This document shows, one piece after another, positions 9,439-42,250 of a DNA stretch of 64,000 nucleotides. The notes under the pieces are model-generated. The model was not told the origin of the DNA, made no database searches, and saw only the letters and a list, made by a program, of their open reading frames with translations. Both the position numbers and the translations under genes were made by a program. The first letter of the stretch is position 1. Each line of letters opens with the position of its first letter. Origin of the DNA: Sclerodactyla briareus (taxonomy: Eukaryota; Echinodermata; Holothuroidea; Dendrochirotida; Sclerodactylidae); NCBI GenBank assembly GCA_026419785.1, contig JAODTK010004721.1, forward strand, positions 124,001 to 188,000. The letters run 5' to 3'.

Positions 9439-12400
9439 CTTCCCATACTTCGCGGATAGGCTTCTGTACATCCAAAGAAAGAGCACGACTTCCTATATTC
9501 CACTGCGACAATTGCGTAGGCTGAGTGAGTATATTGTGACATTAAAGACAAAAAGTCATGGTCAGATGGTCATAGGCGAAAATGGACAAAAAAAACCACA
9601 GTCCTGGGGGGCACATTTGGATGCGGCAAAAGTGTGGGTGAGGGTTGAAAATCTTGGAAATGAACCTGTTTCACATTTTACCCTCTCAGTACCGGGAAGA
9701 TGATCCTGTTTAGGAGAATTCTCAGATTCTCCTGTTCGGGAGAAATCCTTATGGTAATACGGATATGAATAAAAATTGTGTGCCGACCATTACATATGAA
9801 ACAGTCGCTCACAGATAAGACATCCTGCGCTGTTTGAGTAACTTAACATTAGTTCGATGATTAAAGTTACGTGTGTTTCCATAGCCTGTGTTACCTTCAA
9901 GCGTATTGCAAGTTCAGGCAGTTACCTAACTATTAACAAATGGAGATGCGTTCGCCGAACAACGGGACGAAATCTAATGCCGAAAGCCACCTCGGAAGTA
10001 GTCCATTCTCGTTTCAAATAACAGAATAAATAAATCTCCATTGGACAACTACAATCCAAAACCGAAGCTTTTTGTAGTTGGCACAAAAGGATCGGGATAT
10101 GACAATAAAAGTTGAAGATTCGGATGGACGAATGTTCAAGAGGAGGTGAGAATGGATGTGCCCTATTTAATTTCCATATGGCTGGCAAGTTGCATTGTGG
10201 ACAGGCCCCTGGAAGGAGGGGGGGGGGGGTGGTGATGGGGGTGACAGGGGGTGACGGGGTGAGGGGTGACGGGGTGACGGGGTTGACGGGGGGACGGGGT
10301 GCGGAGCACTCCTACCAATTTCAGGTCATGTGTCCAGCACCCCAGTCGATATTTGAGACTTAAAGAGCTGTCACTGGATTCAATATCTGCACGAAAATTT
10401 GGATCCAGGCTAGGCTCACCAGATCAAGGATGGCTGCGTAAGTTCGTTATTCAGTTGTAACTGAGCACTGAATGGAAGAGATCCTAATATGACCCAAAAT
10501 TCACCTTGATTTTTTTAATGATTGATCTGATAGTATTGGAAAAAGATATCGAAGTGTCCTTATATGTTCATCAAATCCTCAGGCACCTGACAACTGATCA
10601 AAATCCCGCCCCTTTTTGCACCCGTTTTTCAGACAATTACCACCCATGCCACTATCCCCCCCACAAACATAATTAGTAGGTTGTTCTCCATGCACCCTAG
10701 CGTCAGCATTCAACATGGGGGGAAGGGGTTAGCCTGCTAAAAGCCCAGACGAATGGAGAGCGTTCCTGAATAGGAGGCCCTACGCCCCAGAACAAACATA
10801 GAGTGCGTAAATCCAACAGTCGACTATCACAACATATACCGTCTGCAGGACTTCGTTTGACAAATCCCAGAAATGGGATTTTGCTCATTACATTCGAGGA
10901 CGTAGTTGTCAGTCATCAGTAGCACATTGGCGTTGATATGATGATCGCGGAAAAATCGACAATGAGAGGTCATCAATATTTACAGAAGACTTGCAATAAC
11001 ATTTTACAAAGCACCGAAAATGAGGATTATCGAAGAATTGATGCATTTGAGCATAAAATTGAGCGAAGCACGTTTCGGCTATGCCGCGTATTGTGGCTGT
11101 CTGGTATCGCCGCGGAAGTTCGGAATAATATGAATCCTTCAAATGGTCAAATAAAGAAGAATATCCATCTACATATGCCAAAAAACTGGTTGGAGGTTGT
11201 GCTTAAATTATTACAAATAAGACCAATAGAGGTAATTTCCAGCAGACATGGCCGTTCCCGTAATTTAGTGAAAGAAATAATGTCCGATTGCGCAATCAAC
11301 GTGGCGTCGCACCGCTCCACTAGTACCGCCCAGATCAGCTGGACAGAGAGCAGAACGACGTCTCACAGGCGTTGGTTTGGACAAATCACCGATTGGTTAA
11401 AGTCATCCTTCACATAGAGGAATGAGACCTGCCCCCCCCGCTCCCCCACGAGGAGAACAAAGCAAACGCCGTTTCAACAGCTAGGGAGGGTTTGCAATTG
11501 GCCAGGTTCCACGACCGGTAGTGGCAGGTTGCCAGGTGTAAAGTTTCCTGACGAATCTCAGCCAATTTTGTTTCTATCGCCGTAGTTGGGCTTTGTTAAT
11601 CTTGTGTAACGGACGTGAACGTGGTTAAGTCAGTAGTAAACTGGCCTTTTCGGTGGTCTGTGAGTGAGTTTTAAATTCCTTCGCCTCGCTTCGCGCCAAC
11701 TGAAGCCATTCTGCTTGCCGGGCAATCACAAAACCACATAACTACCCCGAAATAGGCCTACTACTACTACTTCACAACCGCGTACTTACGGGTGTAGGCA
11801 CACACTGATCTAGGCATAGGCCTACCGTATGCATAGGGGCCTACACATGACGATTTTTCAATCATATTTTTATTCCTTAAAAAAAGAATCATTACCATGG
11901 GCGGCGATCACGAAGGGGGGGGGGGGGCGGGGACAGTCCCCCAATATTTGGGGGGGGATAAATCAAATATACACCACTATTTTGAGGACTGGCGAAAAAA
12001 TCCTATTATCAATGTACAGTACGGCCAAACAAAATGTCTAAATCATAGGCTTTATTAGATTGTTGAAAATTTTGTTTAGAAGGCCGAAATGCCAAAAAAA
12101 ATCCCATACAACAAGCCGCAATCCAACTGCCATTGTTTAACATGCACACAGTTTGTCTACTTTGAAATCCTATTGTTCAGATGGCTTTGCCAGCCTGACG
12201 TGCTGTTTTTAAGAGAAGGTGAAAGCTATATGTAAACGAAAATCAACAGGGGCAGGGATCGTGCACATTAGTATGAGGTTTACGTGATTGACGATGGAAC
12301 TATCAGGCGCGGAGGCGGGGCAAACAATTCTGAGACAGGAGAAATTGACGACAAATTGAGCGCAAACTATCTTGAAAATGACCAAATTATCTGCGGACTG

Positions 12401-22104: not shown

Positions 22105-24669
22105 AAAATTTGAAGTGAAAACATTGCAGCAAGCAAGAAACGTTATATATGCTGTCGGATCGCAGGTTGCTAAGTGCATCGTACGATCTTCCTCACGTTG
22201 TTTTCTGTTCATAAAAATGTTCTCTTAGACATCCCTCCATCCGATGCTGTATGTAAACAAAGCAGGTAGCCTACAAGTAGCTTGATTCCTGGCCGTTTGC
22301 CACCTCGTCTTTCTGCAATGCAATAAAGAATAATCAGAGTTCCCTAACGTTTTACTAACGTTTAACTTTCAATAATGCTTCAATAACAAGGAGGCTGTCG
22401 GGAAACTATAACCTACCGAGTGTCACAGACGCTACAGCCCACCGGAGGAATTCGAGATATTTCTATGTGAAATGTTGACCAAAAAATTTCAACCATCAGT
22501 ATCAGGCCACTATGAATGTTGAAATGTTTGTTCTTTTTAGTGTGTCTGTTTTGTGTCTAAATAGTTTCTGTGACGATAAAAAAGATTTTTTTTTTTTTTG
22601 ATCTAGGGGCAAACGTAGTTAAAACGACCCTGCCTCCGCAATTGACTCTAATCCGTTTTCAATCAGTGTAGTCAGTTGTCAATAATCCAGTTATTCTTCC
22701 TCGCAGCTTCAACAAGGGGTGGGGGTGAATTGACCCTACCGTTTGGTTAGGTTCCCCGCTTTGATTGCTAGACTGTGCGATAACATTAGTAGCAGTCCCT
22801 ACTTCCAACAAGTGTGTTGAATTGGAACTGACAACCTCAGAAACAATAGCATGTATGTATGAGTTATATCATATATTTTTCACAATATTTACCTCCACCG
22901 CTCGCGGATATGCTCTACCTGCAAGAGAAAAATCGAACAGTACCGTATTATAAAAGACTCCTTTCTATCCTAATCACAATAGAAACCGTCGTTTCCTTCA
23001 AATGTGGATAATGGTCGAATTGGCTGTCTGACAATTCTTTCCGTCCAACTGATTCGTCAAAATTGCAGCATTCGTCGATCACTGATGTTATCATGGTAGG
23101 CACCATTAACAGCATAGTAGAAAGTAAAAGATGAGCTAGAAGTTGAAACGTGAACAGACGATATCCGATCCAAGAATGTATAACTGGAGCTGCGGTTATC
23201 TAGAACTTTATACACAATGGTGTGAATATGACGCCGTTCTTGTTAACATTTCATATGCATTATGCTGTTGGAATTACCGATCGGATGAAACGAAACAGAG
23301 GAAAATGTAATAAAATGACGACGACTCACAAGCTTCTGGTAGAGATCATCATCCATGCATTCTTTTTCACTCAGCTGAAAAAGAGGCAAAAACGTAACGA
23401 AATAATATCGCATCGAGCATCAATGTACTTGGCTTATAAGACGGGAGAGGATGCAGAACTGATTATAATGGTCGACATTTCCTCCGAGTGCCTTATTTGT
23501 TTCATTGACACCTAAAAAGTGAATTATTCGTTATTAGATGCTTGTCACATGGGAACGAATAGCTCAGTTGATCTTCGAAAAGCAGCAGTTCTGTCTGCAG
23601 TTCGAACGTATAGTCTATATGGGTCTATATTACGATGATTCAAACTTAAATAACCTCATTACCAGTCCTTTCTGTTCGCTCCGACCTGTTCCCATCCACC
23701 TGCAAGTTTGAAGGTTCAGGCGATAATCGATCCAATCAACTAAAGAAAGATAGAAAATTTAATGTCAATGGCAATCATCAGATTGATTTAGCACGTAGTA
23801 TGAACTGAACCTGACTTGTACACAACTACGCAGAGAGCAACACAGTGTTTTTAAACACGCTAAAACGAAACCCTATGTTTTTTCACTATACTGTGTATCC
23901 GATTGATATTATGTTTGTGTTGTTTGGGAAGGGTCGATGACCTTTTTATGTCTTATCTGAACGCTGAACAAGTACATAGTATGAAGGAAATGTATGCGTA
24001 CAAAACAGGGCACGCTATAGGATTTGTTGCGGTATTCTCGTTTTAGGTAAGTTTCACCCTGGTAGGATCATTAACTCCTTCATTAACTTTCAGATGTTTG
24101 ATTGTTCTTCCCGAAATCCTCGACCTCTGTCCATCAAGAATTAGCACAACTACTAGGTTGATAGTGTACCCCTTACCTTCGGTGCACCCTAGCATGCTTC
24201 TGACCCCAACTTTTAGCACGTGGTTTGCACCATCCTGGTAAGGTTTATCTAGAAATGTTTTAGAAACTAAGGAGGTGGATACAGCATGGCCTCCTCCGAA
24301 TTCCTATATTCGCCGAATTGTTTAACTTTGACCCGAATGCGCTTTTTAGGACTACCTACCTCACATTGTCGATGTCGTAGCCACGAGGGGGCTTTAGGAG
24401 GTCAGTCTCACATTACCTTACCAAATGTTGTCCTTCCTTAACCTAATTTCCCATCCCCAAATGTCAGTGGGCCATAGTCTGCTTTCCCCCTCGCCTCGTA
24501 CAACTGTGGCCTATCCATAAAATAAAAAAAATGTTCAGTATGGAGATATCACTGCCACTAACAGGGAGCTGGACAGACCGTTTTCGTTGACTGAGAGACA
24601 TTATTCTCCACAATTTCCTTGCTCGCTACGCGCCAACTGCTGATGCGATATCATTTCGAAAGGGTCCTA
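22105..24669. other. No gene recognised
   Basis: AT-rich sequence. A plus frame at 23222-23515 (97 codons) is open but matches nothing I know. T-rich tract near 22588. No splice-bounded exon or repeat array was identified. Confidence 0.35.
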
Positions 24670-25195
24670 CTAACCCGGGTGGATATATCCAGGGTTACGA
24701 CCGCGTCTGGCCCACCGTAGTATATGCGTTATTGTGTTTTGCTGGTATAAACGGGTATAAGTGAACAGCTTTGCCAGATTGCCACTATCACTATGCGTCA
24801 TATTCAACCAACCAATTGATATGGGCCTACCTTTGATTCTCCGTGAAGAGCAAACAGAAGAAAGTGAACTTTCGAGCTGAATTGTTTGAGGTGCGATACA
24901 GCCAATGAACCTGGGAAAATGTACAGATATAATACCAAATTCATTAGAAAGATTGAACAAGGTGTTAACATCTACAGTCACATAGATCACAATATGTTCG
25001 TTGTTGGCTAAGAATACCGCGGAGTAATCTGTGATAACTAAACATTGGATCGCAATCGTCAGTTGTTCTTCTGAAATATTATATATATAAAAAAAAAAAA
25101 GATGGAGAACGACAAAAGGTTCGAGCCTGTCGTGAATTTTCGAAATTTCTTCAATTGAGTCAACAGAACAGTTTAAAGCATGTAACAATAAGTAA
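24670..25195 (-). CDS. Terminal leucine-rich-like exon of the NLR gene
   Basis: After tttag the frame continues the LRR exon without a phase break: YLLLHALNCSVDSIEEIS, then DRLEPFVVLHLFFFYIYN, then ISEEQLTIAIQCL, which resembles an LRR helix segment. The frame stays open for about 175 codons to a TAG at 24670, the longest uninterrupted coding stretch in the window. The later part (VDVNTLFNLSNEFGIISVHF, then ISIGWLNMTHSDSGN) is not obviously leucine-rich and I cannot name it. LRR regions of NLRs sense ligand and hold the NACHT module inactive. Confidence 0.55.
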
Positions 25196-28100
25196 CTAAA
25201 GTATTATGCATGACAAAGCGATCCCGCGAATATTCCGATAGTTACTAGCCAACTCCTTTAAACCTGAAACATTGACATGGAAGACATTTATCAACCAATG
25301 AATACCAATAACATTGTTTTGTTTTATTCTTCAGCCATCAATGCAAAGCCATTATCAACTAAGTACCCAGTTACTACTCACAGAAGTTTCTGTAGCTGGT
25401 CACATTGCGTCGCAAACCATATGATATCTCTCATTTCCCCGTTAGTCATCTTTCTCGCTCCTTCTCCGATCTCCATACTTCAGCGTGTTCAACGCCGGAA
25501 GCAGAGATTCGATTGTAGGAAAATAGTGGTATTGTTGACGAACCGCTTGAACACTTCTCCAAATATACACGGTCAATGGTACCTACGATATGATAAAATA
25601 TACTATATCATTTTACAGAAGACACACTGTATTATATGGAGCCACTGGTGATTTAATAATTTCTCGTCTGCGGTGTTCCCCTTCCCAGTTGGGAATATCA
25701 TAGGAATCCCTCTCAGATGAATTTTGCAACGATATAACTTAATGACGCCGTTGGTGTAAGAACATGGCTCATGTAGTACAACACTGCCCCTAAAAGCGGC
25801 AAACTTCATCTGTAAAGCTAAACCGCCAGTAACAGATGGGTCCTTAAAGGCCTGTGAGCAATTACACGGGTTTTCAGGCTAGGTCAATACCAGGCACTTT
25901 ACTCACTATGTTTGGGAGGCCTACCCCTTTCGTGGCATCCATTCCCTATTTGTTTTCTTTCTAGATATGCTTGCGTTGTCTACAGTACGTATTATTTACC
26001 TTTGATCATCTGCTCTATAGGAGAAGAGAGCGTCTATGAACGCCATGATCTCCCTTACACCCATCACATCGAAGAACTTCTTCTTCTCAAGAACATATTC
26101 GGCATGTACTGAATAAAACAAACATGTGGTGAGTAATTCAGGATCGTACCATTCCGTATTACTCACGTTATTTTTGGAGGCTGCTTCAAGAAGTTGTATT
26201 GTTGACCTCTGTAATAGCCGATTATGCCTCTCTGTGATGGGTACCCTTACTCCCGACACCAACATATTTATGCTGTGCAGGAAAATTGCCTCGTCATTTT
26301 CTTGCTCAAGGATGCAAAGAACCGCAAACTTCTCCCGGTCTTTTGTGCTTTGCAAATGTTCGATAATGATCTTTGAAGAAAAGGGGTTCATTCAACCAGG
26401 CGAATCGATAGACATACTGAAGGTCGAATGGATCGATGTGACGCAAAAATGTTTCCAGGAAGCAGCAGTAGGTTGGTGTGGGGTCATCACCTCTTCAAAC
26501 AAATCTTTCAGCCACAGTGACGTTCTAGTGTCATCAGCAGCAATGAGATCCGCGAGATGGTGAGCTGCATACAACTCACAAAATAGTTTATGATGGAATT
26601 CACTTCAGTTCTATGTTGAATGTTGAATGAAGTTGGTATACCTCTCCATCAAACCAGATACCAATACGAATATACTGCTCACAAGATCTTTTCCAATGCG
26701 CTCGCAAATTTATTTCTTATCCCACATGATAGATTGGCGATGACTACTCAAAGCATCAAAGGCTATTCTGTCCAATTCTTTATGTTCCTCTTCCATCATT
26801 TCAAATTTCCTGACATTCTCATCTTTAAGTTTGTTTCTCATATGAGTGTGGAAACACGATATAATGTATTTGAAGAACGTTGTGACAGATTTGAATGTCT
26901 CAAAATCCTCTCTATCGTGCGTCATGTGTGCGAACAGAACAAAGAACAGAGGTACTTGACATATGTTCCCAGGACGGGGTTTTCTTGTAACTTCTCTTTG
27001 ATGGTTTTGATGATACTGTCGTCATCTCTACGAACCACTGCCTTACGAATATAAATATCACGCGACCTTTCATTGAATCCCGTCAAACGTATGCGATTTT
27101 CTAATGTCTTACTGTTATTCCCTTTGGCAGGCAAGATACTCTCGATGTTACCACTACCAAAGCGTTTTGAACATGTCTCTCTCTTCAGTATACGGTAGAC
27201 GTCACTTTCATTGCTCTCTTGATCTGGGTATTTCATCAAACCTCCAACACAATTAACAGCGATTTAGTTTGGCTTAAGTATTCGAATACTTTCCTCTTTT
27301 AGGGGGGAGTCTCTGGGAAGAAGGAACCTGCTTTATAGCTGTGTAGATCGACTGAACGTTACCCAGTTGCCGCAACCGCAGGTAAATCAATATATCAACC
27401 TCTTTCAATGGTGATCCTCTAACAGCGTTGCACCAGTCATATGCAAACTGCAGGCCATGGTTGACTTCCTTAGCCTGGATCCCCCTCTATCAACTGTCGC
27501 TTGTTCCCGACCCTCATCCGAGCTATGATATCTTGTTAGGAATTTATAGGGTTGTTGTTCCCATTTGTTTGTTGTGGGACTCATCACTAGGGCCTCTATA
27601 CCACCTTCAACGTAAATGGTATTCACACAGTATAGTTTTTCCTTGATGTAAGGAATTGGTAACACTGAGTCGCAGAGAACTTCATATTTGGTTTCAACTG
27701 GCTGATGAAATTTTCCACTTGGTCTCCTGGCTCTGTAAATTAATAAATGCGACTAATAAGACATTTATGATCATTTGGTAGATATACATATCAAGAGGTA
27801 CTTATTATTCCTTCAATAAATATTGAATGTGCAATATTACATCAGAACCCACTAATGACAGTGGTTATCGAAGAGTGACAGATCACAATTAACGTTAAAC
27901 AATAGGCATGTTACTAAACAGCGTTCAATGTTTGCCTAAAGTTATCCACCCTAGTAACTCCATCTTATCGGGCAGCTTTTGAAACTCCGCCCCCAACCAT
28001 GCATAATTGACATCTCGTAGGAACACCATTCTTATTTGGCATCACCAGTGTCAACTACACCAACACGGCACGAGTGAGGCAGAAACTCACCTCAACATGT

Positions 28101-31100
28101 GCACCTCCGACTGGCAGATTCAGGATGGACATAGAGTGCTCATGTCCACTCCAAAGACTGCCAGACACCCTGGAAACCCTCATGCCAAAAAATAACCCCC
28201 CAACGTGCCACCAGTAGCTCCTAGGCTCCTAGCTAACCAGTCCGTCCAGGACCCGCCTCCAAGAGGGTGGGCGGCGGGAACTAACCTTAAGAAGGTGAGC
28301 ATGGTCGCTAGTTAATACCCAAAATAGTAAGTTTTGGGGAATTCACCAGTACTCCCCTTACAGCCCAAACACTCACTGCCTGTATTGCAAGAAGCTTGCA
28401 GGTGGAAGTCCTGCAGAGGGCACATCCCTCCAGCAAGACTATGCCACCAAGCACAGCCTGTGGGACCTAGCGCCCCCTGCCCGCTGATGTAGGCTACAGG
28501 AGATGTGCTGTCTGCGAAAGTTTCAGGCTTCTGTCCTCTCTCCTGCACAGGAGCTTGAAAACTCACAGACCCGCCTCCAGCTTCAAATGCTGTACATGCT
28601 GGCTCGCCTCCGGCGCTGACCATGCCTAACAAATGATCCAGTTCTCACCGGACATGCCAACGCAACCCGGATGTATCCGACGTCGACCGCCTGTACTGGC
28701 TGGAGGAAACTTTGTCGGACGGGCTCGCCGCAGTCCGCCACCACGCTAGGACAGGACAAACCCAGGGACCCTAGGAGAGGTTCCCCAAAGCCGTCGTGAA
28801 GAACTGAGGAGGTGGGACAGGAGAGGACATCTATGCAGAGACAGAGGGTACGATCCTATCCCTACTCGCAATCCCTCCCAAAGGCCAAAGCCTGACATGA
28901 GTCAAGCCCAATGGCCGAGCGAGGATTGCCGACATCCCCACCTCCAGAGACTAAACTCTCAGGGAAGGGAAGTAGGGTCAACTCAAACCCCGAACACACT
29001 AATGACTGGGAAGGGGACAGCCGCAAACACCCATTCCGACCAATCAGGCTATGGACTGCTAATTAGTCCATCCCCCTGTGGCTGCTGGCGCGACTCTGCC
29101 AGGATCCGCTGATTGGCCAGGAGTGGCAAACAGTGGAATCGTCCTCTCGCCATCTCAATTCGACCCCGGTGCCTGTAGCACGTTGGGGGATTAGCTTTCA
29201 GGCATATTTGTTCCGTTCCATGAAATTCCTACTACGGCTTCCACTGATACTAACCTTTGTGTTTGTTAAAAAAAATAGTTCATAGTACCACTGCATATTG
29301 TGAGATAATTGCGGAACAGAGGAACGATCCTCTTCAAAGCCAGGCTTTGAAGAGGATGCAGACCTGGAAACTGCACATTGTCGTCAGCAGCAAATCCTTC
29401 ACTAGGTACACCCAATGAGCCAATGTTTCTTAGGGGCGGAACCTTGATGTAGGGTTCGAGGAGGGGGAGGAATTGAACACAGACGACAACTTGCAAATAA
29501 CTACCCCTCGTCTGGCGAGAAGGCAAAATATATCATTTTTGAAGTAGTTGGTATGACCGGACCGGCACCTCGATCTCCCGACTCTCTACAAGATACATGT
29601 GCCAACCAATCGGTATGCGCGAACGAGAGTGTATGCCACTATATTCCACTGGCTAAACTCGAATACTACCATTTCAACGCACATGCCAGCATCATTACGT
29701 TCTAATAAAAAAATAAGATATTAAACGCATTATGTCAAAATAACATGTATTTTGGTTTTGATATGAAGTCGGCTAGGATTTCAAAGAGCCGTTACTTTCT
29801 CGCCGGGCATAGGTGCTTTAAGCGTGTAATATTAACCCTAAAATAACTGATGGAAAGGGATTGTATTGATTAGTGAGTGAGTCATATGCGATATTCTCGA
29901 CTCTGTTTTACTGCATATATACTGAAGATGTAATATTATTAGATCGCAAACAAGTGAGTCATCTTTCGTAAAATCGTACAATACGTGGCTAGGTGACATA
30001 AACTCTTCGGTTCACCCTGAAGTATTTTGACACTTGATTATACGGTGTTTTGACAATGAATAACCCGATATCAAAGATTCCTGACACCATAGCAGTATGT
30101 TCGTTCCCAACTCAAAGAGTTTCCTGTGGGAACTGAAAATGTGGATAGGGTCATTTTCACAACTGATATCGTGAGATGGAAATCGGTTTTTCTGCAGCAG
30201 GAGGCTTAACTATGTAGGGGTATACATAAAATTTAAATAAATCGCTACTCCAAAGTGGGTACCAATCGGGTTCAGGTCGGAGTATATTGATATGTTCAAG
30301 TATAGATGTGATTCCATATAAGAGTAATCATGTTCCTCGGGTTCGAGACTAAGCTGGCTTCAGACTCAAATAGTAGGGTATTTGTATGTGACGCAAGAGG
30401 TCCGCGGTTTCATGAATGCCAAATTCACGTGAGCTCAAACTGAGGCTAATGATGTATTCGGTCTGCTGAGATAGAGTAGGTTCTATGGAGGCAACGAATA
30501 ATCTCAATGAAAACAAACCAACAAACATTACTACGTACACCACTACGGCATTACTGCCGCATAACTGCATACCAGCATACACAGATACAGGTTATATTGC
30601 TACAAAAATCATTTGTCTCTCCGTGAAACGACGTTAATACTCAACCGGCCGCAGACACAATCATGGAATCCTAATGTATGTCAGTGCGACGCCAGCACCT
30701 ATTAATTCGTAAGTGTTTAATTGCAAGGTAATAAAACAAAGTATGGTCGGTGGCAATTATTCGGACGAAATTACAATCAACTAGGAAAATACTAGTCATC
30801 TGTTTCAAAATAGAAATAAATGTGTAGATATGCCTGCAATTCACGATGATTCGCGAAGAGTAAGGATTAAATTCGCTTTGATGAATTATTACCCCCTCAA
30901 GCTTTGCAATAATTGGAAAATTTACCTACGTGTTTCAGTAAGCATCATGCGTCGAATGCCTGGCTAGCCATTGACATTGTTGCTCAGCTTAGCAAATCAG
31001 TGAGAATTCAAGTATCATAGGAGAACATTAATTCTTTCAAATGGCATGTCGATCTCATGAATATAAGTATATTGACATTGGAAAACTAATATAAATAGAT

Positions 31101-33669
31101 TGGTTTGAAACGTAACTTGCCTCTCCTTCTGCGCCTTCTTCGTTTGAATGGTTTCGGCAATTCTTTTTCACTGAAATATAGTACATGGTGACAGGTGATG
31201 ATAGAACGTGACGAATATTAGATAGTGTGATAGAGTGCTGAATGATCAAACAGAGCAGGAGTCATTCGAGTCAATATATTATGCTTTCAGATATATGGAA
31301 CATTTCGTTCCAGCCATTAGGTAAATTATTAGTAAAACTGGTTTGAAGACTGGTTTAGTATATTGGACATAATATCACATTTACAGTGCATGTAAATGCC
31401 TGATCTAAAGTGAAGTGTTCAGTTTGAGCCAGTGGTACTTGGTAACAGTGTTGTTAATATGCTCCGTGAAATATTATTCAACCTCTGCATTACGTCTTAC
31501 TATTATTTCCAACATTGCAAATCCGAAATGTCGCATATTATGTGGTAGTCTCGGTTCTATTGTTTGCTTCGGCAAGGCCTCAATTCAACAAACAATGAAG
31601 CTCTCTCATGGATCCTTAATAGCCGCTGTCTGTGGAAGGATGTAACAGGGTGCCTCTGGTTCTCAGATGGAGCCTCTCAAGTCTATAGGAACAAACACTT
31701 CAAGAAGAGGAGGGGAATCAGGGGCGCGTCGGGTATGTGCCACCAACAATTAGGGGATGGTTGCGGCAATTGACCTTAATCGTCTTCAGTTAGAAAGTTT
31801 TGTTCGTCAGGCGTTATTTACCTTTGAACAAAGTTACTGCAATCACGACAGGAAGCAGGACTAGTAGAACCACAACTGGCACTACCCACATCGACTTCTA
31901 TTGGAATCATCTATGGGAGTGAATGAAATGAAACAATGACAACAAAATTGATTTTACAAAAGATATCTATAAGAAGAGACGGTACATAATTACCATTTCA
32001 AGAAAGCCAATGGCTCAGGAAAGTTTTTGTTCACAAACGAGGTGGGTGCAAAACCGATCTGTAATATTCAGAATAATTACTAGATCACCTTGTTCAGTAA
32101 TTCCGAACCCACCGTGAAATACGGTTCCACTGTCCACGTCTTGACCAAAGTCAGCATATGGCGTAGCCTTAAAAAGGTAGCGGTTGATTTCACATAAGCC
32201 TCAAACTGATGTGCACAAACCCGGGGTCAGGCAACATACGAATACTCCTCAAATGCTTATACCACATTCTGCTGAGTACCTGAAGTAGCTATACATTTAC
32301 CTGGAGGAACACCAGCTCTAACGTAGTATAAGAGGAAACAACCATGTGTATTCGCCAGTAAACACGGCATTCCACTGCCAGCCTTGTTTCAGTAGTCGAG
32401 AGGACGGTGAACCGCGACACTAAAGTACTGTCAGAGATCTCCCTTTCTTCTCAATGAGGAATTATGATTTGAGTAAAACGAATTGGTCATGGCGACTGAG
32501 AGGGGCCCCATTCAAGTCGTACAGAGGGCCGTATACCACGCATCGTACAGGTAAGGTTGCCTTCGCGAAGGATCTTTAGTACACAGAACCGGTCATGGCT
32601 GCATCCTTCCACAACAGGATAATTCGTGTAGGATTCACTAATGGAAGGAAAATAGCAAAAGGTAAGAGTACACAGAAGAATATTGGATGCATGCATACAT
32701 ACAGCTCACATGTGGCCCTCGTTCGGACAAGGGGTGTGCACGTATAGTGAAAAAATATAACGGAGCAAACGATTTTAATATTTGATTTAATATTCGCTTT
32801 CGAACCTATCCAGGATTCATATGCGGACATGTGTGTGACATCTTCATTAGCTCCTCTATTTCTAGAGGTAGGGTGCCCCGATTATGGCCACGTGCCCCCC
32901 CCCCCCCCGCCCCAGTTGGCACCGCCCTGTAGTCCATAGTCTAACATTATACATTTTTTAAAGGGCAGTGGTCATGTTAATATGACTTGACTTTAGTTAT
33001 TTCATATCTATTACCGTATGGCAGTCAGACCGAACTTCAGCCGATCCGAGTGCAGCGATTAGGTACAATGATATTGAAAAATTTGCCTTGGAGCATCACG
33101 AGGGGAACCGCAGGGTACTACAACGTCAATGTATCATATGTACCCTTTAGCAAACAAATTATGAACGGGATTCGAATGGGAACTTGCGAGTTCGTTCAAA
33201 ATATATCAAATAACGATCTCATCATTTCTCAAGTGAATATCCGTTTTCGTCTTTCTGTTGTCTGTTCGATTAGCATGCTGATGACACCCCTGTCAGTTCA
33301 GTTTCATTGGACATTGGCGCAAACTCACCATAAACATGAACATCATATCGTGTTTCCCGTGTTCTCCGTGTCGAATGGAGACATAGATACCTCCCTTCAT
33401 GGGTGATACGGTTTCTTGAAAGATAGTACTCCTGTGTCTACCATGTGTATGCCATCGGTTGTATAACTATATAGTATACCTTCACTAGGAACTCCAAAGG
33501 AAATCTCATCAAACTCGTTCGCGCCAACAGAACGTTTCCAAACGAAAATTTCACCACCGTCTTCCGAACACACTAGATTTTCGTTCGAATTTAGTTCAAA
33601 GTATACATGCCCAGGTTGCATTTCAGATGAGAGTTGGCCGTTTTGTATAATGAGGAAGGATTGAGCCCT
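24670..33669 (-). CDS. Membrane receptor gene: Ig-Ig-TM-NACHT-LRR (frameshifted)
   Basis: Composite model for the minus strand, 5' to 3': Ig V-like exon (33669-33329), Ig C-like exon (32637-32301), possible stalk exon (32058-31994), transmembrane exon (31897-31822), juxtamembrane exon (31170-31121), NACHT exon (27732-26167), exon 26108-26000, LRR exon 25477-25382 and terminal exon 25195-24670. Splice phases agree at three joints: TM to juxtamembrane (1/1), 26000 to 25477 (2/2) and 25382 to 25195 (2/2). Juxtamembrane to NACHT agrees if the second of two adjacent AG acceptors is used. The NACHT exon needs at least six one-base corrections, so the copy is either a pseudogene or badly polished. 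The signal-peptide exon was not found. NACHT-LRR proteins are normally cytosolic; placing one behind a membrane anchor is the notable inference. Two adjacent genes remain an alternative. Confidence 0.6.
25382..25477 (-). CDS. Leucine-rich-type 96 bp exon
   Basis: An AG acceptor at gctgaag and a strong GTGAGTAG donor bound 96 bp, i.e. 32 codons with symmetrical phase 2/2. This modular size is common for LRR exons. It reads MEIGEGARKMTNGEMRD, IIWFATQCDQLQKLL. An in-frame stop lies just before the acceptor, supporting the boundary. Phases match both the preceding (26000) and following (25195) exons. Confidence 0.5.
25700..25809 (-). CDS. Possible leucine-rich exon
   Basis: A good acceptor (tttagctttacag) precedes an open stretch: MKFAAFRGSVVLHEPCSYT, NGVIKLYRCKIHLRGIP. 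The spacing of hydrophobic residues is loosely LRR-like. No good donor is visible, and the neighbouring exons at 26000 and 25477 already match each other in phase without it, so it may be an alternative or dead exon. Confidence 0.25.
26000..26108 (-). CDS. Exon after NACHT, or read-through extension
   Basis: Bounded by a ttttattcag acceptor and an AAAG|GTAAAT donor. It reads VHAEYVLEKKKFFDVMG, VREIMAFIDALFSYRADDQ (phase 1 to 2, 109 bp). The intron separating it from the NACHT exon would be only 58 bp. Without splicing, the NACHT frame runs straight through to a stop at 25996, adding VSNTEWYDPELLTTCLFYS. Its end phase fits the next leucine-rich exon exactly, which favours it being a genuine exon. 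Confidence 0.5.
26167..27732 (-). CDS. NACHT ATPase exon of an NLR-type receptor (frameshifted)
   Basis: Starts after atttacag. The NACHT lead-in includes SVLPIPYIKEKLYCVNTIYV and EGGIEALVMSP. A Walker A-like GDPG..GKST lies at about 27487-27459, split by a frameshift. AYDWCNAV and LRLRQLGNVQSIY follow. Walker B (LLIVLE, GFDE-like, then YPDQESNESDVYR) is at 27258-27215 and a sensor-1-like VVVTSR at about 27165-27143. Then come RIRLTGFNE, IKEKLQENPVLG, VPLFFVLFAHM and the helical region MTHDREDFETFKSVTTFFKY to DALSSHRQSIMWDKK. The NLR motif HHKLFCELYAAHHLADLIA lies near 26600 and the exon closes with LLQRSTIQLLEAASKNN before a GTGAGT donor. NACHT ATPases oligomerise on ligand sensing. Evident frameshifts fall near 27702, 27470, 27315, 27235, 27165, 26960, 26680 and 26440. 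Family assignment is firm; functionality is not. Confidence 0.9.
27960..29180 (+). mobile_element. GC-rich island with zinc-finger-like coding, probably retroelement debris
   Basis: Base composition jumps above that of the surroundings for about 1.2 kb inside the large NLR-gene intron, with sharp edges. On the plus strand a frame near 28360-28450 reads HCLYCKKLAGG (C-x2-C). A frame near 28504-28566 reads CAVCESFRLLSSLLHRSLKT followed by H, a C2H2-like finger, then FKCCTCWLASGADH. Tandem zinc fingers of this sort occur at the N-terminus of some non-LTR retrotransposons. No reverse transcriptase was found. A competing 106-codon minus frame (28312-28632) overlaps, so the reading is tentative. 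A GGGCGGCGGG stem-loop sits near 28255-28281. Confidence 0.35.
29181..31120. other. Remainder of the large NLR-gene intron
   Basis: No convincing exon. Holds the perfect palindrome at 29329-29355. A minus frame at 30349-30582 has a hydrophobic stretch, VVVYVVMFVGLFSLRLFVAS, but lacks clear splice signals. Confidence 0.35.
29329..29355. repeat. Perfect 27 bp palindrome (13 bp arms)
   Basis: CCTCTTCAAAGCC, one A, then GGCTTTGAAGAGG: thirteen paired bases with a single central base. Confidence 0.85.
31121..31170 (-). CDS. Cytoplasmic juxtamembrane exon with GC donor
   Basis: Acceptor tactatatttcag, then 50 bp reading (with the G carried from the transmembrane exon) VKKNCRNHSNEEGAEGE. The lysines right after the helix are a classic stop-transfer signal on the cytoplasmic side. 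Phase 1 at the start matches the transmembrane exon exactly and the exon ends in phase 0. The donor is GCAAGT, a GC-AG type intron end, in a good consensus context. The following intron of about 3.4 kb contains the GC-rich mobile fragment. Confidence 0.6.
31822..31897 (-). CDS. Transmembrane exon
   Basis: After the acceptor ccaatag the exon reads KSM and then WVVPVVVLLVLLPVVIAVTL, followed by FK and a GTAAAT donor (31821-31816). The ~20-residue uninterrupted hydrophobic stretch is a single-pass membrane helix. The exon ends with the first base of a codon (phase 1). Two stops lie in this frame just upstream of the chosen acceptor, which supports the boundary. It separates the Ig exons from the NACHT exon in the same transcription direction. 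Confidence 0.7.
31994..32058 (-). CDS. Possible extracellular stalk exon
   Basis: A 65 bp open segment between an ATTACAG acceptor and a GTAATT donor. It reads IGFAPTSFVNKNFPEPLAFL with no stop in phase 0 and ends phase 2. Its length and position between the Ig C-like exon and the transmembrane exon suit a short linker. Its end phase does not fit the transmembrane exon (phase 0 start), so either an indel intervenes or it is not used. Confidence 0.3.
32301..32637 (-). CDS. Ig C-like domain exon
   Basis: Bounded by a pyrimidine-rich acceptor (ttttccttccattag) and a CAG|GTAAAT donor. The first half reads GCSHDRFCVLKILREGNLTC, then MRGIRPSVRLEW, giving B-strand Cys and C-strand Trp. After a frame slip and one in-frame stop between about 32420 and 32500, the second half reads SDSTLVSRFTVL, TRLAVECRVYW and TTLELVF, giving E, F (second Cys) and G strands. 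Two extra Cys before the B strand suggest an additional disulfide. Length (337 bp) fits one Ig domain. It lies between the V-like exon and the transmembrane exon in the same orientation, so it is the membrane-proximal ectodomain. Confidence 0.65.
33329..33669 (-). CDS. Ig V-like domain exon
   Basis: The minus-strand frame reads SNENLVCSEDGGEIFVWKR, so the B-strand Cys and C-strand Trp are ten residues apart, as expected for an Ig fold. It continues FGVPSEGILYSYTTDG and DTGVLSF. After a one-base slip near 33425 it reads THEGRYLCLHS, a typical F strand (E-G-x-Y-x-C). The exon ends YDVHVY followed by a strong GTGAGT donor (33328-33323), phase 1. The start at 33669 follows a weak AG acceptor and is less sure. 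This would be the outer ligand-facing domain of the receptor. A further open stretch (33949-33670) lies upstream and includes ILSCAVIGS and HEWIVPES; whether it is another Ig exon is unclear. Confidence 0.6.
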
Positions 33670-36121
33670 CTTCAGTATAAGCCAAATCACGGTCATTTTG
33701 CATGAAAGTAAACACAAGGAAACTTTGCAGGCGGTTAACCGCGAGGGTATTTAATGAACGAACCGACGTATCCCTATAAAACATCAAGCGTAAATGTTTG
33801 ACTGTGGATTCAAGTGATTCGGGCACAATCCACTCATGTTTACCCACTCTCAATTGACTGCCAGTACGAGATCCGATGACCGCGCAAGACAAAATGGTAT
33901 CCTGAACTAATTCCCGAAACACATCTTCATATTCCGCAAGCATCATCAATAACAGGAAGGGTATAGAGGTTCACTGTGACGAAAAATCATGTACAGCATG
34001 AAACATTATGCTGATATTTTCGCTATCACACTAGTATTTCTGACTTATAGCCATTAAGTACTGATTCTTTTCGCCTCGATATCGATCGCAAAATGAGACA
34101 TCTACCATTGCAGATAGGATGCGTATCACGCGAATGAATATAAATGGAATGTCTTCCTCAAAAAGCACTCACGACAATATGCGGGCTATGATTTTTTTTT
34201 ATGGTTTATCCGCAAAACGTCTAAGTCTTCTCTTTCGAAACGAACGCTGTTTTCGTGAATATGTTATTTTCACTTCAGCCTGGATACGCACACGGGGCAA
34301 CCATTGAATCCCAGTCTGAACCGCGGCCATGCGGAGGCCCTACGAGACGTAGGTACCTGTAGTCTTTGGAGGCAATTCTAATGGATCCCGGTGGCAACAC
34401 GACCACTTTTTCCTGTCGAACGACGCCTAACAGGAATTTACTGGTATAAGCTCTCTTAAGTATCGGTAGAAATACAATGGTTGAGTTGCACGAAGAGAGA
34501 AAAAAGAGCCTAAATGAGATTCACTGACCGGAACATGGTCAGTGATGTTGTGAATTACATGTGCAAAATGAATGTGTGGGACATTTTGTTACCTGTTACC
34601 ACAGTATTTACTGTATGAGCACTGGTGGTCGGGGTCGTTGATTCTGCCGGGTCGCTAAATAGGTTGCTTCATGCTCCAAATGTAAACAGTCCTATTACAA
34701 AAGAGGAACCCATTAGGATGACATGTGTTGTATTCTCCGAGTGTACAAACCTTCACCGCTCTTGCGGAATTGTAACATTAGTAGCCTTTCCGCTGCTTGA
34801 TTGATCCATGTTATACCGAAGAATGTCATTGAAGAGAATTGGATAACGCCATAAATTTCCCAGTTCCAGATATTGGCCGTTGATCACATCCGTGGGCGTA
34901 GCTTGAGAAGCTATAAGACAGAGTTACAAGGAATGGAGTATTAAACATGCATATCTTGGGACTCATGGTTTATCAGTGATTATATCTACCGTAGAAATGG
35001 AATTCTTGGACCAAAGATCTTATGTATGAATTGTTCAAGGTTTATACTGGAAATGAAGAATTTAATTGAATTGAAAACAATATTACGCGCATCCCACCCA
35101 CAATTAGATGAGTAAATGTAACAGATTAATTTATGAACGTTAATGGTAATTGTTGCATTAGGCTCTGAGAGGGAAACACCAAAACAAAATCAATATTTTG
35201 GAAAATCATTCCAGAAATGAGGAAAAAAGAAATCAAGAAACAAATGGAAATTGTACCGGCTCTGCGTAGGCGACATATAACATTTCTACAGATTTCCGTT
35301 CGTACAAGAGCTGCAAATCCTTGGCAGAATTTCGATATTTCAATCAAAGAAAGCTATAACTGAATTTCAGCTTGATATGACCAAGATGAAATTCTGTGTT
35401 CATGGGGAAAAAATGTGACCACGACCTAACCCGGAAAAGGAATAAGGTCATGTACTCATCATAGGTAAACATATAAAAGAAAGAGCTTTATATTAATATA
35501 AGTGGGGTTGAGTTATCATTGACAAGGGAATAAATGGTCATTGCATAGACGGACCCCACCAAAAAACATTAGGGTTCCAGTACTATTGGCAAATGAAGCT
35601 AACACCAAATGTCAACGGGATCAGACCATGCACTCTAGAGTGAACTTGTTTTACAAGAATTTCCTGACTTCGACCACTGTCTGTCATTGCAGTTATCAGT
35701 TTACCAGCCAATATGTAAGATTTCACGAACATTTTCAATAATACCACAAGGTAGATAATACCAAATTTCAACTGTTCACAATTCTGGCAGTCGGGTTACA
35801 AGTGATCAGCGTTAAACATGGTTGACCCAGAGGACCTCTAACATGACTCAAAATTCAGTAGGTTAATCTACTCATCATGAGGAAAAACTATCAAAAACGA
35901 TTTGGTTAGTGTACTCACCATAAATAGGCTGAACACATATGTCAGTGATTGAACTAGCGTTCGTTCAAAAATATTGCAGACTTTGACCTCTGGTGACTCA
36001 GATGACTATTAACTTGACCCCAATAGGGATCATGCACCAATATGGGGAACACAATATAACAGGTATGAGCGTATCAACTCAGACCTGATAAGCATAGTGC
36101 TTACAACCAGTCGTCACCCAT

Positions 36122-36230
36122 AAATACATAACTACATAATACATACTACATACAGAATACACACATACATACATACATTACATACTAATAAATACCTACA
36201 TACATACATAAATACATACATACATTACCA
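36122..36230 (+). repeat. TACA/TAAATACA microsatellite
   Basis: Imperfect ATAC tetranucleotide tract interrupted by AAT-type units. A short GC-rich patch (36236-36335) follows. Confidence 0.85.
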
Positions 36231-36566
36231 TAGATGCGCGAGGGGGGTACCAGCAGGGTACAGGCACTAGGGGGATGGCATGCTTGAGCGCGCCTCGGAG
36301 CGCCAGCAGCACGAGCACCCCGCGGGGCGATGACGGCATAGCCTTTACAAGAGAGCTCGGACGGACGCCAACTGGCTAAGTTCCGATGTTCCCATATATA
36401 ATAGGAGGAAACTTGAAGTCATTTCGCGTTTAAACAATCGATGGGATTTATTCAATGGCATGTTAGGACTTCGATGATTGGTAGAGTGATAGAACTGATA
36501 GCCGAACCATACAAAAGTGATGCTCAGCAAAAAAAAACATGTCAAAAACCTATGCACATGAAATAT

Positions 36567-36570
<4 letters not shown>

Positions 36571-36619
<49 letters not shown>

Positions 36620-36704
36620 GCATATATAGATAATATATAATATAATATATATCTTATATATATATATATTATATATAATCTATATATATATATATACGAA
36701 CGTA
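36571..36704 (+). repeat. AT dinucleotide microsatellite
   Basis: Long imperfect (TA)n interrupted by short TAAT and TAGA units. Confidence 0.9.
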
Positions 36705-37301
36705 GCACGAAATCATGTATCTTTTCCCAGGCAACATGATGGCGTAAAACATTACTTGTGAAGATGAGCAACGTCAGGTCTATGAGGCAGTTATTCCATT
36801 GCCTGTTTCTTGGACTTTGTCAGTAATATATGAAAAGAAAAAAATTGTGTTACGTCAAGAAAAACAATATGATGAATTATGGGTGACTTACGCCTCAAGT
36901 TCCTATCAGAAATGAAGCATGAAGCAGTGCGTCCCCCCATCTTCATTTTTGTTTTCTGTGAATGAACGGATCAGTTAAATTATAAAACTACCGGGGGAGT
37001 CCCTGGCATCGTAGAAAAAGGAGGCATGCCTTTTGCAGATATCGAACTTTCAGTTTCCCAACTTATGATTCAGTGCTGTTACACCGTCTCTGGTATTGAT
37101 AGATCCTATCTAGTTATCACTGTTCGAAGATACTCGATACATTATTCTCTTCCACTCTCAAGAAAAATTTGTGAATTTTTTTGGTCTGCGATGGCTTTCA
37201 TCTGTGTGTATTTTCTTATCTGAAGTAATGACCTTTTACCTGGTGAAGTTTTTTCAAATTCGCAATTGTTTACAACGCGACTGTCTCAGAATCCTTGACA
37301 C

Positions 37302-37475
37302 TTCAGAGCGGTGCAATGATTCTAATAGGGTCGTATGGGCATTTGAAGGAGAGCTGTTCTACTTCGGGGGAGCCCGGTGAAAGAAAAACTCTTGCCCGGT
37401 ATTACATTTCTGGCAAATGAATCTGTAGTCCTTCAACACGTTTCACTGCCTCATGACGCACTTTCACCTGCTATT
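37302..37475 (+). CDS. Ig-like domain exon on the plus strand
   Basis: After a good acceptor (cgactgtctcag) the plus strand reads SERCNDSNRVVWAFEGELFY: a Cys then W eight residues on, as in an Ig B-C strand pair. After a slip near 37368 it reads GEPGERKTLARYYISGK, and after another NESVVLQHVSLPHDA followed by FTCY, matching the E-F strands (D-A-x-F-x-C). A GTAAAC possible donor lies just after. Two or three one-base slips are needed. It is opposite in orientation to the main receptor gene, so it belongs to another gene or a rearranged fragment. Confidence 0.45.
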
Positions 37476-37639
37476 AGTAAACTCTGATATCCGTGTATTC
37501 GGTGACGTATCAGGTGGTATAGGGAATAAATATAGGTAATATAAATAAAATAAATAATTTATCATCACAAAAGATGTCAGTTTTCATGGTCGGAACGAAC
37601 CACGAGGTATGAAGTAAGCATAACACTTCCTTACCAACA

Positions 37640-37780
37640 CAGTTCTGAACCATGTATGCGGAGGGGCCGCGAATGAATTCAGTTAGAAAACATTGAACAT
37701 CACCAGAATATGTTGTATTGTAATTTTCCCAGTCACCAGTATATGCGCACGCGACACGAAGATAGATTTGTCCGAAATTG
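37640..37780 (-). CDS. Possible extracellular exon of unknown fold
   Basis: A long pyrimidine tract precedes the frame, and a consensus donor (GTTG|GTAAGG) follows it. The translation reads YNFGQIYLRVACAYTGDWEN, then YNTTYSGDVQCFLTEFIRG, then PSAYMVQNCV: three Cys and an N-glycosylation-type NTT. This could be an Ig or other secreted domain; I cannot place it. No exact AG acceptor is visible where expected. Confidence 0.3.
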
Positions 37781-38616
37781 TAGGAGGGGGGGGCGGTGGG
37801 AGGCAAGGGCAATGATGAAAATCAGAGCAAAGATTTGAGCGAATTCAAGGGAATTCCTGTTTTTGTAAATACCTTGTTAATCTGTAGTAGTAACGAGTGT
37901 CCCAATCGATAGATTAAAATATATATTATGTTGTCACTTCATTGTAGTACATACGAAGACCAGAGAAATTTAAGGGAGGAGGACAAATCACGCAGTGCAA
38001 AACAGAAAAATACTTAAACAATAGGTCCAGATCAAGCGCAGGTGTTAGTAAAATGGACAGTAATGATCTGTAGCTTGAATGATTGTCCTTACCAATCGTA
38101 GGAATAGCTTGGCGTGGTAAAGTAGCATACGGTTTTGAAAGCAAATCAAGCAAATAACTCAATTCCTATATCCCATATATTGGAAACGTTATCTATGGAA
38201 ACAAGGAGAAGAAAACGGGATTCCAATAAACATTTGAAATTTGATGAATGGAGTGACACATTGGAGAGTCTTTTAACCCAATACGAACAAAAAAAGAAAA
38301 CAAAATGACTTTGTGCCAATAATCTTAGTGTCTCACGTTCCCATTTCCTAACTTTTTTCGATGCGCTTTATGAATACTACTTTCCTGGATTTTGCCGCCA
38401 AGAAAGTTGACCAGAACTGCACTCGGTTGTCATTAGACACTTGAGCGAATATTGTCTTTCAATTCCTTGGAATCGCTGAAATATTGTTACCACATAATTG
38501 TATTGGTAAAAGGAAATGTGTGCTTTTTTCTAAAAAATGATGAAATGTTGACATGAAATCATTCTCCTTCTTCAACACGTTCGAAATAAGTCAACCCGTT
38601 AATACTGGATTTTGCA

Positions 38617-38662
<46 letters not shown>

Positions 38663-38689
38663 TATATATAGATATATAGTATATATATA

Positions 38690-38728
<39 letters not shown>

Positions 38729-40086
38729 TATATATAGATATATATCTATATATATATTATATATATATATATATAATAGATATAGTGATAGATCGATAGA
38801 GCATAAGATAGTATATAGATACATAGATATCCGCTCCGTTAAATCAGGTCGTGTTAACGAGGGTCTAATAGTGTTTTGTCAACAGCATCTTTTGGTTATG
38901 ATACCTCTTACACACATTTTTCATCCCCACTCTTCTCAATGGTATGGTTCTTCGGAGAGAAAATGGCAAAGAACATTTTTGGGAGGGGAGTTTCCCGTCA
39001 CCACAGACCAAACTCAGTTTTTCCACGTCCGTCCAAATTTCCCCAAAAGTTAAAATCACAATTAATTTGTTACTATTATTGGCCTGACTGTCACTCTGTG
39101 CCATGTTCCAACGAAGTAAAATTTGTCTGTTTGCTGATGCATCATTATCTATTTGTTGTTTCATCCGTCACACATCGATTCAATCACAATTACGTATTAC
39201 CATTGATGACATTAATATTTCAATAGTCTATGTTGTTAAATTTCCTGACTTAATTTTTCATCAGTTATGTTTTAAAAAAATTGCCTGGAATCTCTCATTC
39301 AGGTTGGAAGATTCATATAGATAGTATCCTAACATAGTATATTATAACTTCAACCTTGGTACTCTCATATATAAGTAGTCGAGAGTAGTCTAAAATAAAA
39401 AATTAGACAAGGGGCAATCACGCTTTGATCATCGTTGGGATTCTCCTATCAAATCAATAACTCACGCTGCTAGAAGGCCCCTCTCTACTTCCTGCTATCG
39501 GATTTGCGTGTGAACCCTCATTGATGCATAGCCAGGCCTATACTTTCCTGCCTTATGTACCCGTGTTTCTACGTTTTTATGTTTGTGAGAGTATTCCCGC
39601 GCGTCCAGTTGCTGTGTATTGATCGGTTCCTTTAGTCCGATCAGTGGACCAAGTGATCGCATTCTCATCCTTGTATTCATTGTATTATCGTTTGCTGCAC
39701 ACTTGGGAAAAGAATGAAGTGTTTTTATTCTGTTTGGGTCTGTTCTTGCCTCCATCTGTTGTACGGGCTGCGGTCATGGGATTAAAGGGTAAGTTTTCTG
39801 TCGGAGAATTGAAATGTGGGTGGATTTCACAAATCGGAGTTGAGCTTCAAACTAGGAGTTAGTTTTGAGCAGACCAGGGAGGGTGGGTTAATGTTTATAC
39901 GTGTCGGAATGTATCAACTGCTGAGTTGGTAGCGAATTTGGGGGCGTTGTAGTTTTTATGTTTCTACGTGGGCCCATAAGTGACGTGCAGTATTGTAGTC
40001 ATCGGGATAAAATGCCTGTTGCTGCGTCGTATGCTGGACGCTGATGGGACGTAGCCGTTGAACCGGCTTGCGGACAAGTTGCTGGA
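37781..40086. other. No gene recognised; contains AT microsatellite
   Basis: Apart from the AT tract at 38619-38790, no exon or RNA gene was recognised. 38870-39230 plus has overlapping open frames in two registers without a recognisable domain. Confidence 0.35.
38619..38790 (+). repeat. AT dinucleotide microsatellite
   Basis: Very long imperfect (TA)n, grading into ATAGAT units up to about 38830. Confidence 0.9.
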
Positions 40087-40109
40087 GGGGGGGGGGGGGG
40101 GGGGGGGGG
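40087..40109 (+). repeat. G23 homopolymer
   Basis: Twenty-three consecutive G residues. Confidence 0.9.
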
Positions 40110-40599
40110 ATGGTTGGTTGATATTCAGTTCTAACTATTCGCCATAACCAATCAATCGGTACTGTAACCAGACAGAATATACAAGCTGGGCTTAATCCAG
40201 GAAATGCTCAGGTGGCGTACTGTACTCCTGGGGGCAAAAGGGGAGGGGGGTTTCCCTGGAATGAATTGTTTGGGACGAAATTTTGACCTTGTCGCAGGTT
40301 ACCAAGGTTTGTAATTAACAAAAATCACGCTGATTAGGTACATTTCATGCCCTACGGTGACTCCGAAATGCAGTTGATGAGGAACATGGAAGTATTGTGG
40401 TCAAATTTCCCGGAACGAGTGTCACCGTATTTTCGTACGTTTGCACAATTGGAACTTGTTTCTCCTATAAACAGACCGAGTAGGTCCAGTTGGCAGACAT
40501 CAGTGCATTATTAGAATCGTTTTAAAATGATTCTCTTTAGAAATTCCTTAGAGTTGGCATAGAATATCATATGGATTTCTTTGGAGATTCTTCACAGAT

Positions 40600-41085
40600 C
40601 CTATCAAATCCTATAAATCTTCTTTAGAAATTCTTTAGAATTCTATAGAGTTTCTATAGATTATCCTATAGATTTTCTTTAGAATTCTTCAGAATTCCAT
40701 AGAGTTTCTATAGAACATCCTATAGATTTTCTTCAGACTTCTTTAGAAATTCTTTAGAATTCCTATACCGTTCCAACAGAATATCCTATTGTTTGCTCCT
40801 GTTCAGAAAAGTCTATGTTTCTATAGAATATCCTATAGATTATATCCTATAGAAATTCTACAGAGTGTCTACAGAATATTCTATTGATTTCCTTTAGAAA
40901 TTCTTCAGAGATTCTATAGAGTTTCTATAGATTATCCTATAGATTTTTTCCTCAATACATTTTCAGAAATTATACAGAGTGTCTATAGAATATCCTATAG
41001 ATTTTCTTAACAATTATTTAAAGATTCTATAGAGTTTCTATAGAATATCCTATAGAGTTTCGCAGAAATTTTTCTTGGAATTTCT
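40600..41085 (+). repeat. Degenerate minisatellite (TCTATAGAATATCCTATAGA core)
   Basis: Variants of TATCCTATAGATTTTCTTTA and AGAATTCTATAGAGTTTCTA recur every 45-75 bp, for example near 40664, 40709, 40828, 40934, 40991 and 41046. It is AT-rich with embedded small palindromes such as CTATAG. Edges fade into similar sequence back to about 40530 and forward to about 41150. Confidence 0.75.
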
Positions 41086-41340
41086 TCAAAAAATTCTTTA
41101 GAAAATTTATAGAGGTGATCTACAGAATATTGTTAGCGTTTCTATAGATTTTCTAAATGGAATTCTATGAAACTTACTTTTTCGTAAGGGAATTCATTTT
41201 ATTTCCCAACTTTCTTGTCTGTAAATACACAGGGCAAAGACCATATCCATCCATATCCTCCGTGTCTCCTTCTATATTTCTGTGACGAAGAGTAGGCAGA
41301 AAGGACATCTATTGATAGATTCAGTGACGATCGGCGATAG

Positions 41341-42250
41341 TCAGAATATGTATATGGTTCTCAGCAGTTATTTCTCTTCGGTTTTCACTCAAGAAAACCT
41401 TGATAGTTTTTGATGACCTCGTTGTTGGTATGTCTCCTAATAGTGTTAGCGATTTGGTTTGTACGCCAGGCTTGGTTAAGGAGGAATTACAGAAATAAGA
41501 ACTGTAAGCTCCTGGGCTGGACGGACGGACTTCAATCGTTCCGCCTAAAGTCGTTTGCTGATGAATCGTTTGTTCCGTTAGCTCTCATTTTCAATAACCC
41601 CTTCAGAAAATTCTGGGATAAGAAGGCAACTGTTTTTCGCCTATGTTCAAGGAAGGTAATCGTTCTTATTCGTGTAATAACAGGCCAGTGAGTCTAACTA
41701 GTGTTGTTTAATAATTGAATCATGAATTGGGGATCATTTGGTGATTCGTGAGTCTCAGCATGTCTTCAGAGAAAATCGTTCGTGCTTGACTAATTTACTG
41801 GAATCATGGAAGATGTTACTAGTTGTCTATTAACGCGCGGTAAAGCTGTCGATATTATTTTCCTAGACTTTCGGAAAGTCTTTGATACCGGTTGCCTCAT
41901 CAACCTTTGGGTTTGGATATCACCGACAATGACCTGGAGTAGATGCAAGAGTGGCTTACAACAGGGGCAGAGAGTTTCCATTGATGGGCGTGTTCCTACC
42001 TGCAGATGGTCACCATCGTGGTTCCCATGGTGTCGGTTCTTTGCCCTTTACTCTTTTTGGGTTGGATTCTCAGCGTGATCATACGTAATTTCAAAAGATG
42101 GCTACGAGATTAGTGCACTGTCTGCGGATTTGCCGTATGTGGGAAGATTGAAGCGTCTTGTTGTGACTTCGCAAATTTGGGGTGATGTGATTCAGGTTTT
42201 CAAAATTGTCTAATGACTTCGATAACTTTCCTTTCGACTCTTCGACCATT
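41341..42250 (+). pseudogene. LINE (CR1/Jockey-like) reverse transcriptase remnant
   Basis: Pieces of a non-LTR retrotransposon reverse transcriptase appear in order across three frames: YFSSVFTQENL-like (41369-41398), GWTDGLQSFRLKSFADE with PLALIFNNPFR (about 41510-41610), PVSLTS (41688-41705), QHVFRENRSCLTNLLES (41760-41808), AVDIIFLDFRKVFDT (41845-41890), RVSIDG, and a VPMVSVLCPLLF segment standing for the usual VPQGSVLGPLLF (about 42010-42055). The YADD-type centre is not cleanly visible; ALSADLPYVGRLKR near 42117 lies where it should be. Multiple frameshifts make it non-functional as written. No 3' tail or target-site duplication was recognised. Confidence 0.75.

Follow-up and report, generated by a model that had tools for sequence, protein, structure and literature searches.

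On the minus strand of the 64,000-nucleotide stretch analysed here (the window, C2485:124001-188000 in an assembly of 319,486,128 bases and 3,171 contigs), the locus from about 34.9 to 25.4 kb is probably a pseudogene of a sea-cucumber Ig-TM-NACHT receptor family of the AjNLRC4 type. Its homologous stretches were found individually and joined with an X at each break into a single query, and a family HMM built from 22 relatives was run on the window, with the reversed window as control. Sixteen HMM pieces were obtained at E <1; every one lies on the minus strand, between 33750 and 25381, and they keep to the order of the HMM throughout (210 to 1103); the reversed window gave none at this threshold (best E 1.3), and the pieces in the window are more than chance. 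A tblastn search with 120 relatives (E up to 1e-3) returned three clusters in the window, every one inside the same locus. Where frameshift-tolerant alignments of relatives ran past the limits of the locus (about 34.9 and 25.4 kb), their ends were treated as noise and discarded.

Parts of the locus

The family HMM and the homologues identify a NACHT region of the AjNLRC4-type family, preceded on the same strand by Ig domains (the third and fourth found with the HMM, the first through a duplicate of the unit, L007), with one membrane helix in between, encoded by a hydrophobic exon (31897-31823). The parts are as follows:

34698..34883, minus strand: Ig domain 1 remnant, located via L007, where Ig1 lies at 9611-9790 (E 1.7e-10)
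33770..33995, minus strand: probable Ig domain 2 remnant, weak, from frameshift-tolerant alignments to relatives only
33327..33681, minus strand: Ig domain 3 with one frame break, HMM pieces 33750-33400 (E 2.5e-8) and 33437-33273 (E 0.012)
32301..32636, minus strand: Ig domain 4, a single frame with two stops, HMM pieces at E 2.7e-14 and 1e-4
31823..31897, minus strand: membrane-helix exon, read from its hydrophobicity and aligned in L007
31122..31178, minus strand: probable basic juxtamembrane exon, aligned in L007
27940..29720, no strand: long-intron sequence mostly missing from L007, which has about 170 bases there
26155..27740, minus strand: NACHT region and the part after it, with 13 frameshift clusters and several stops, from the family HMM
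25381..25479, minus strand: faint remains of the C-terminal repeats of the family, HMM piece at E 0.0094
C2485:74001-84000: L007, another Ig-TM-NACHT copy that is likewise broken, about 74 kb away on this contig and strand

A sequence-only reading of the window had proposed a membrane-anchored NLR, and the order that it claimed on the minus strand (Ig, membrane helix, basic exon, NACHT) stands, with no LRR recognised. The real start lies further upstream than it had noted, the Ig1 remnant at about 34883-34698 being added via L007; taken by itself, the window piece of Ig1 is at chance level (E 2.3 with the 22-relative HMM). In individual alignments to relatives, the Ig4 exon shows 0 to 6 frameshifts instead of the two in-frame stops. 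The phase argument advanced for the join between the membrane-helix and basic exons is borne out in part: the former can end in phase 1, but the arginine run on which the basic reading depends sits outside the phase-1 frame.

Between 22 and 36 kb none of the three minus frames matched Pfam (two frames scanned at E up to 1, the third at E up to 10), because the homologous stretches jump between broken frames and a joined read-through is needed. When seven single pieces were submitted, three gave matches to other families at chance level, and the two Ig pieces of the window copy reached no Pfam family. The joined NACHT piece scored 21.8 bits, below the curated 26.7, and found no match among solved structures. 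The leucine-rich exons had been taken for LRR, an assignment that finds no support: in the six intact relatives submitted, Pfam searches at E up to 1 recognised Ig and NACHT families and no LRR family, and the C-terminal leucine-rich repeats of a canonical NLR were found neither in these proteins nor in the window frames. The relatives do have a C-terminal region, of which the window shows one weak family piece, that at 25479-25381.

The sequence at 27940-29720 in the long intron is GC-rich, and by eye it consists of two inserts (about 27940-29238 and 29290-29690), the second of which contains a 31-base near-perfect palindrome at 29327-29357. It is probably a mobile element; no second copy was found among the sequences compared, and Pfam searches at E up to 0.1 gave no match in the plus frames of 27900-30900 or the minus frames of 36001-42000. 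Simple TA-rich repeats at 36345-36819 and 38661-39053 generate spurious open frames whose translations abound in Y and I.

Probable decay in the window copy and in other copies

The exons are not open. When 60 relatives (median identity 52%) were aligned to the NACHT region of the window with frameshifts allowed, each alignment required 14 to 21 frameshifts (median 18) and met 1 to 11 stops (median 3.5); 13 clusters, with events numbering at least half of 60, lie in about 1.6 kb, and the last Ig exon adds its two stops. Frameshifts and stops thus leave the window copy with no single open reading frame that would yield a receptor. Away from breaks, where at least 90% of relatives agree on a residue, the window copy keeps 105 of 120 sites, against a median of 97.3% among the relatives, only one of which is as low (a loss exceeding that of 59/60). 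In a quickly built tree its end branch is long, 0.71 compared with a median of 0.17, and it falls inside a 25-row set with 23 rows of Apostichopus japonicus and one nameless row (SH-aLRT 98); this placement and the relatives point to a sea cucumber as the source of the DNA. Given the frameshifts and stops, a working receptor is not supported, and we infer that the window copy most likely makes no receptor today.

L007 aligns collinearly with the window from 24000 to 34989, and the unit was therefore duplicated as a block, from Ig1 to beyond the C-terminal end; over the 268 of 299 kb of the contig that were covered, only the window copy and L007 were found, besides an isolated weak piece at 205743 (E 0.33). 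Counted on the same scale, L007 holds 13 frameshift clusters and the window 15, six of which overlap a cluster of L007 and nine of which do not, and therefore decay may have started before the duplication and continued afterwards. The two NACHT regions, about 82% identical, differ by 37 indels, 32 of them not multiples of three. At codon positions 1, 2 and 3 the window and L007 show differences of 11, 13 and 19%; for L008, another copy, the figures against the window are 35, 22 and 64%, and the pattern with L007 points to weak constraint. The NACHT stretch is 82.5% identical and the remaining aligned sequence, made up of introns and Ig exons, 67 to 77%, which suggests that NACHT was under some constraint during part of the period. 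The membrane-helix exon of L007 seems to be without a GT donor; the window copy keeps one.

A Pfam NACHT search of the genome listed six places, namely L001, a different NACHT gene, and the family copies L007 to L011; family counts are lower bounds, because the window copy was not on this list. All five family copies fetched (L007 to L011) are frame-broken, with 6 to 12 clusters each. Such generality is what indel errors throughout the assembly would give, and many of the breaks are single-base, as they would be if the gene were intact and encoded a working Ig-TM-NACHT receptor. L008 weighs on the same side, having 9 clusters yet few stops and 133 of 143 conserved sites kept, so that apart from the clusters it is the least decayed-looking; retention of some apparent splice donor sites in the window copy also sits uneasily with a pseudogene. 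Against it, the same assembly carries long open frames, 304 codons in the family copy L010 and 369 and 289 codons in L001 at 477-2382, and the window copy has in-frame stops and lost conserved residues. Homopolymers were considered as a sign of sequencing error, and an excess at the breaks is not clear, either over the six copies (17 of 61 break sites, 14.1 expected) or in the window (4 of 13, 2.2 expected). We consider an intact gene hidden by assembly errors improbable. The two open frames of L001 overlap in different frames, which implies one frame break or an intron. Conserved-site figures are lower in L009 to L011 (0.66 to 0.71), which may reflect other subfamilies; L008 and L011 have Ig pieces ahead of NACHT in the same orientation, and none was found within 7.6 to 7.8 kb upstream in L009 and L010.

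The apparently retained splice donors would also suit a locus that is dead as a receptor but whose transcription goes on and yields something shorter, for example an Ig fragment for secretion or an RNA with a regulatory role, but since the Ig exons themselves are broken or carry stops, we regard this as very improbable.

One gene with Ig and NACHT parts

The joined query retrieved 208 homologues, 120 of which were listed; 104 of these rows are named, every one of them Apostichopus japonicus or Holothuria leucospilota, and the remaining 16 are nameless. By our own count, 35 of the 120 matches listed hold Ig and NACHT Pfam domains in one protein, so that the fusion proposed from exon order and phase was right in kind. 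A search for single proteins with Ig, TM and NACHT, suggested as a check, was successful as well, a hydrophobic helix lying between Ig and NACHT in 32 of these 35 listed relatives. P0063, one of the three that the helix test missed, does have a helix at 472-490, and its Walker motif falls outside the pattern used; no helix was found between Ig and NACHT in P0017 and P0090. For nine of the 35 the source is a contig only 3.7 to 6.9 kb long that carries a frame of 1166 to 1268 codons, and we take these contigs to be spliced transcripts.

Single relative proteins run from Ig into the C-terminal part of the NACHT region and so take in about 94% of the joined query, and because of this coverage and of the duplication of the unit as a collinear block, the comparison supports a reading of the Ig and NACHT parts as one gene, not two. 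That two separate genes, one for an Ig receptor and one for a NACHT protein of the cytosol, are neighbours by chance might be argued from the long gap (31.1 to 27.7 kb) and from the many matches listed that have NACHT but no recognised Ig family (85 of the 120 are without an Ig-plus-NACHT pair, own count), but with both domains and mostly a helix joined in the other 35, and with much of the gap being inserted sequence missing from the duplicate, it is hardly credible.

Described receptors and the possible fate of the family

The family to which we assign this probable pseudogene has been described in A. japonicus, a farmed sea cucumber. After a first cloning paper (Dev. Comp. Immunol. 2020), PMC8699970 places AjNLRC4 in the membrane, its Ig-like and Ig domains facing outwards and NACHT (600-757) inwards, predicts helices at 483-503 and 776-795, gives it no CARD or LRR, and reports microbe binding, dimerisation and actin-based phagocytosis; according to PMC11932488, its Ig domains bind a caspase-1, leading to MLKL cleavage. 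Our relatives share the Ig, helix and NACHT layout with no LRR (P0003 has its helix at 476-494 and NACHT at 601-750), the likeness being one of layout and family and not of alignment to the AjNLRC4 sequence itself, deposited as MN607598. The proposed topology, Ig outside and NACHT inside, agrees with that reported for AjNLRC4, save for the second predicted helix that AjNLRC4 has after NACHT (776-795, PMC8699970); AjNLRC4 is expressed and tested, whereas the window copy is broken. A second protein of A. japonicus, AjNLR-new, likewise combines Ig, TM and NACHT in a single chain of 1197 residues, but the 2026 paper on it reports the opposite topology, with Ig on the cytoplasmic side and NACHT facing out (PMC13133943). 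In another sea cucumber, Chiridota heheva, an NLR with NACHT and an Ig V-set domain, comparable by description and not by sequence, is noted in passages of PMC8913654 that call it absent from sea-urchin NLRs and mention no membrane helix. With vertebrate NLRC4 the family shares NACHT homology, the intact relative P0012 matching solved NLRC4 chains (E 3e-9 to 5e-9), and differs in having no recognised CARD or LRR and in the addition of Ig domains and a helix. A membrane-anchored NLR is right in kind and not new, having been in print since 2021 (PMC8699970, PMC13133943 and PMC11932488, and the Ig V-set NLR of C. heheva); the window copy is probably dead.

Homology shows that the ancestor of this copy encoded a membrane protein in which some four Ig domains were followed by a single helix, a juxtamembrane segment, the NACHT ATPase and a region at the C-terminus. 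By analogy with AjNLRC4, its Ig domains would have bound microbes, followed by dimerisation and internalisation, and it would then have driven actin-based phagocytosis and caspase signalling. The unit was duplicated within the contig, and both copies are broken today.

The remaining interest is evolutionary: an immune receptor family that has expanded shows copies which were duplicated and are decaying, as fits the fast turnover of such genes. Because frame breaks run through the window copy and the five other family copies examined, and long open frames persist in a different NACHT gene, one could suppose that the whole Ig-TM-NACHT family is dying in this sea cucumber, which we find rather unlikely; if true, the lineage may have abandoned a type of surface receptor that its relatives expanded.
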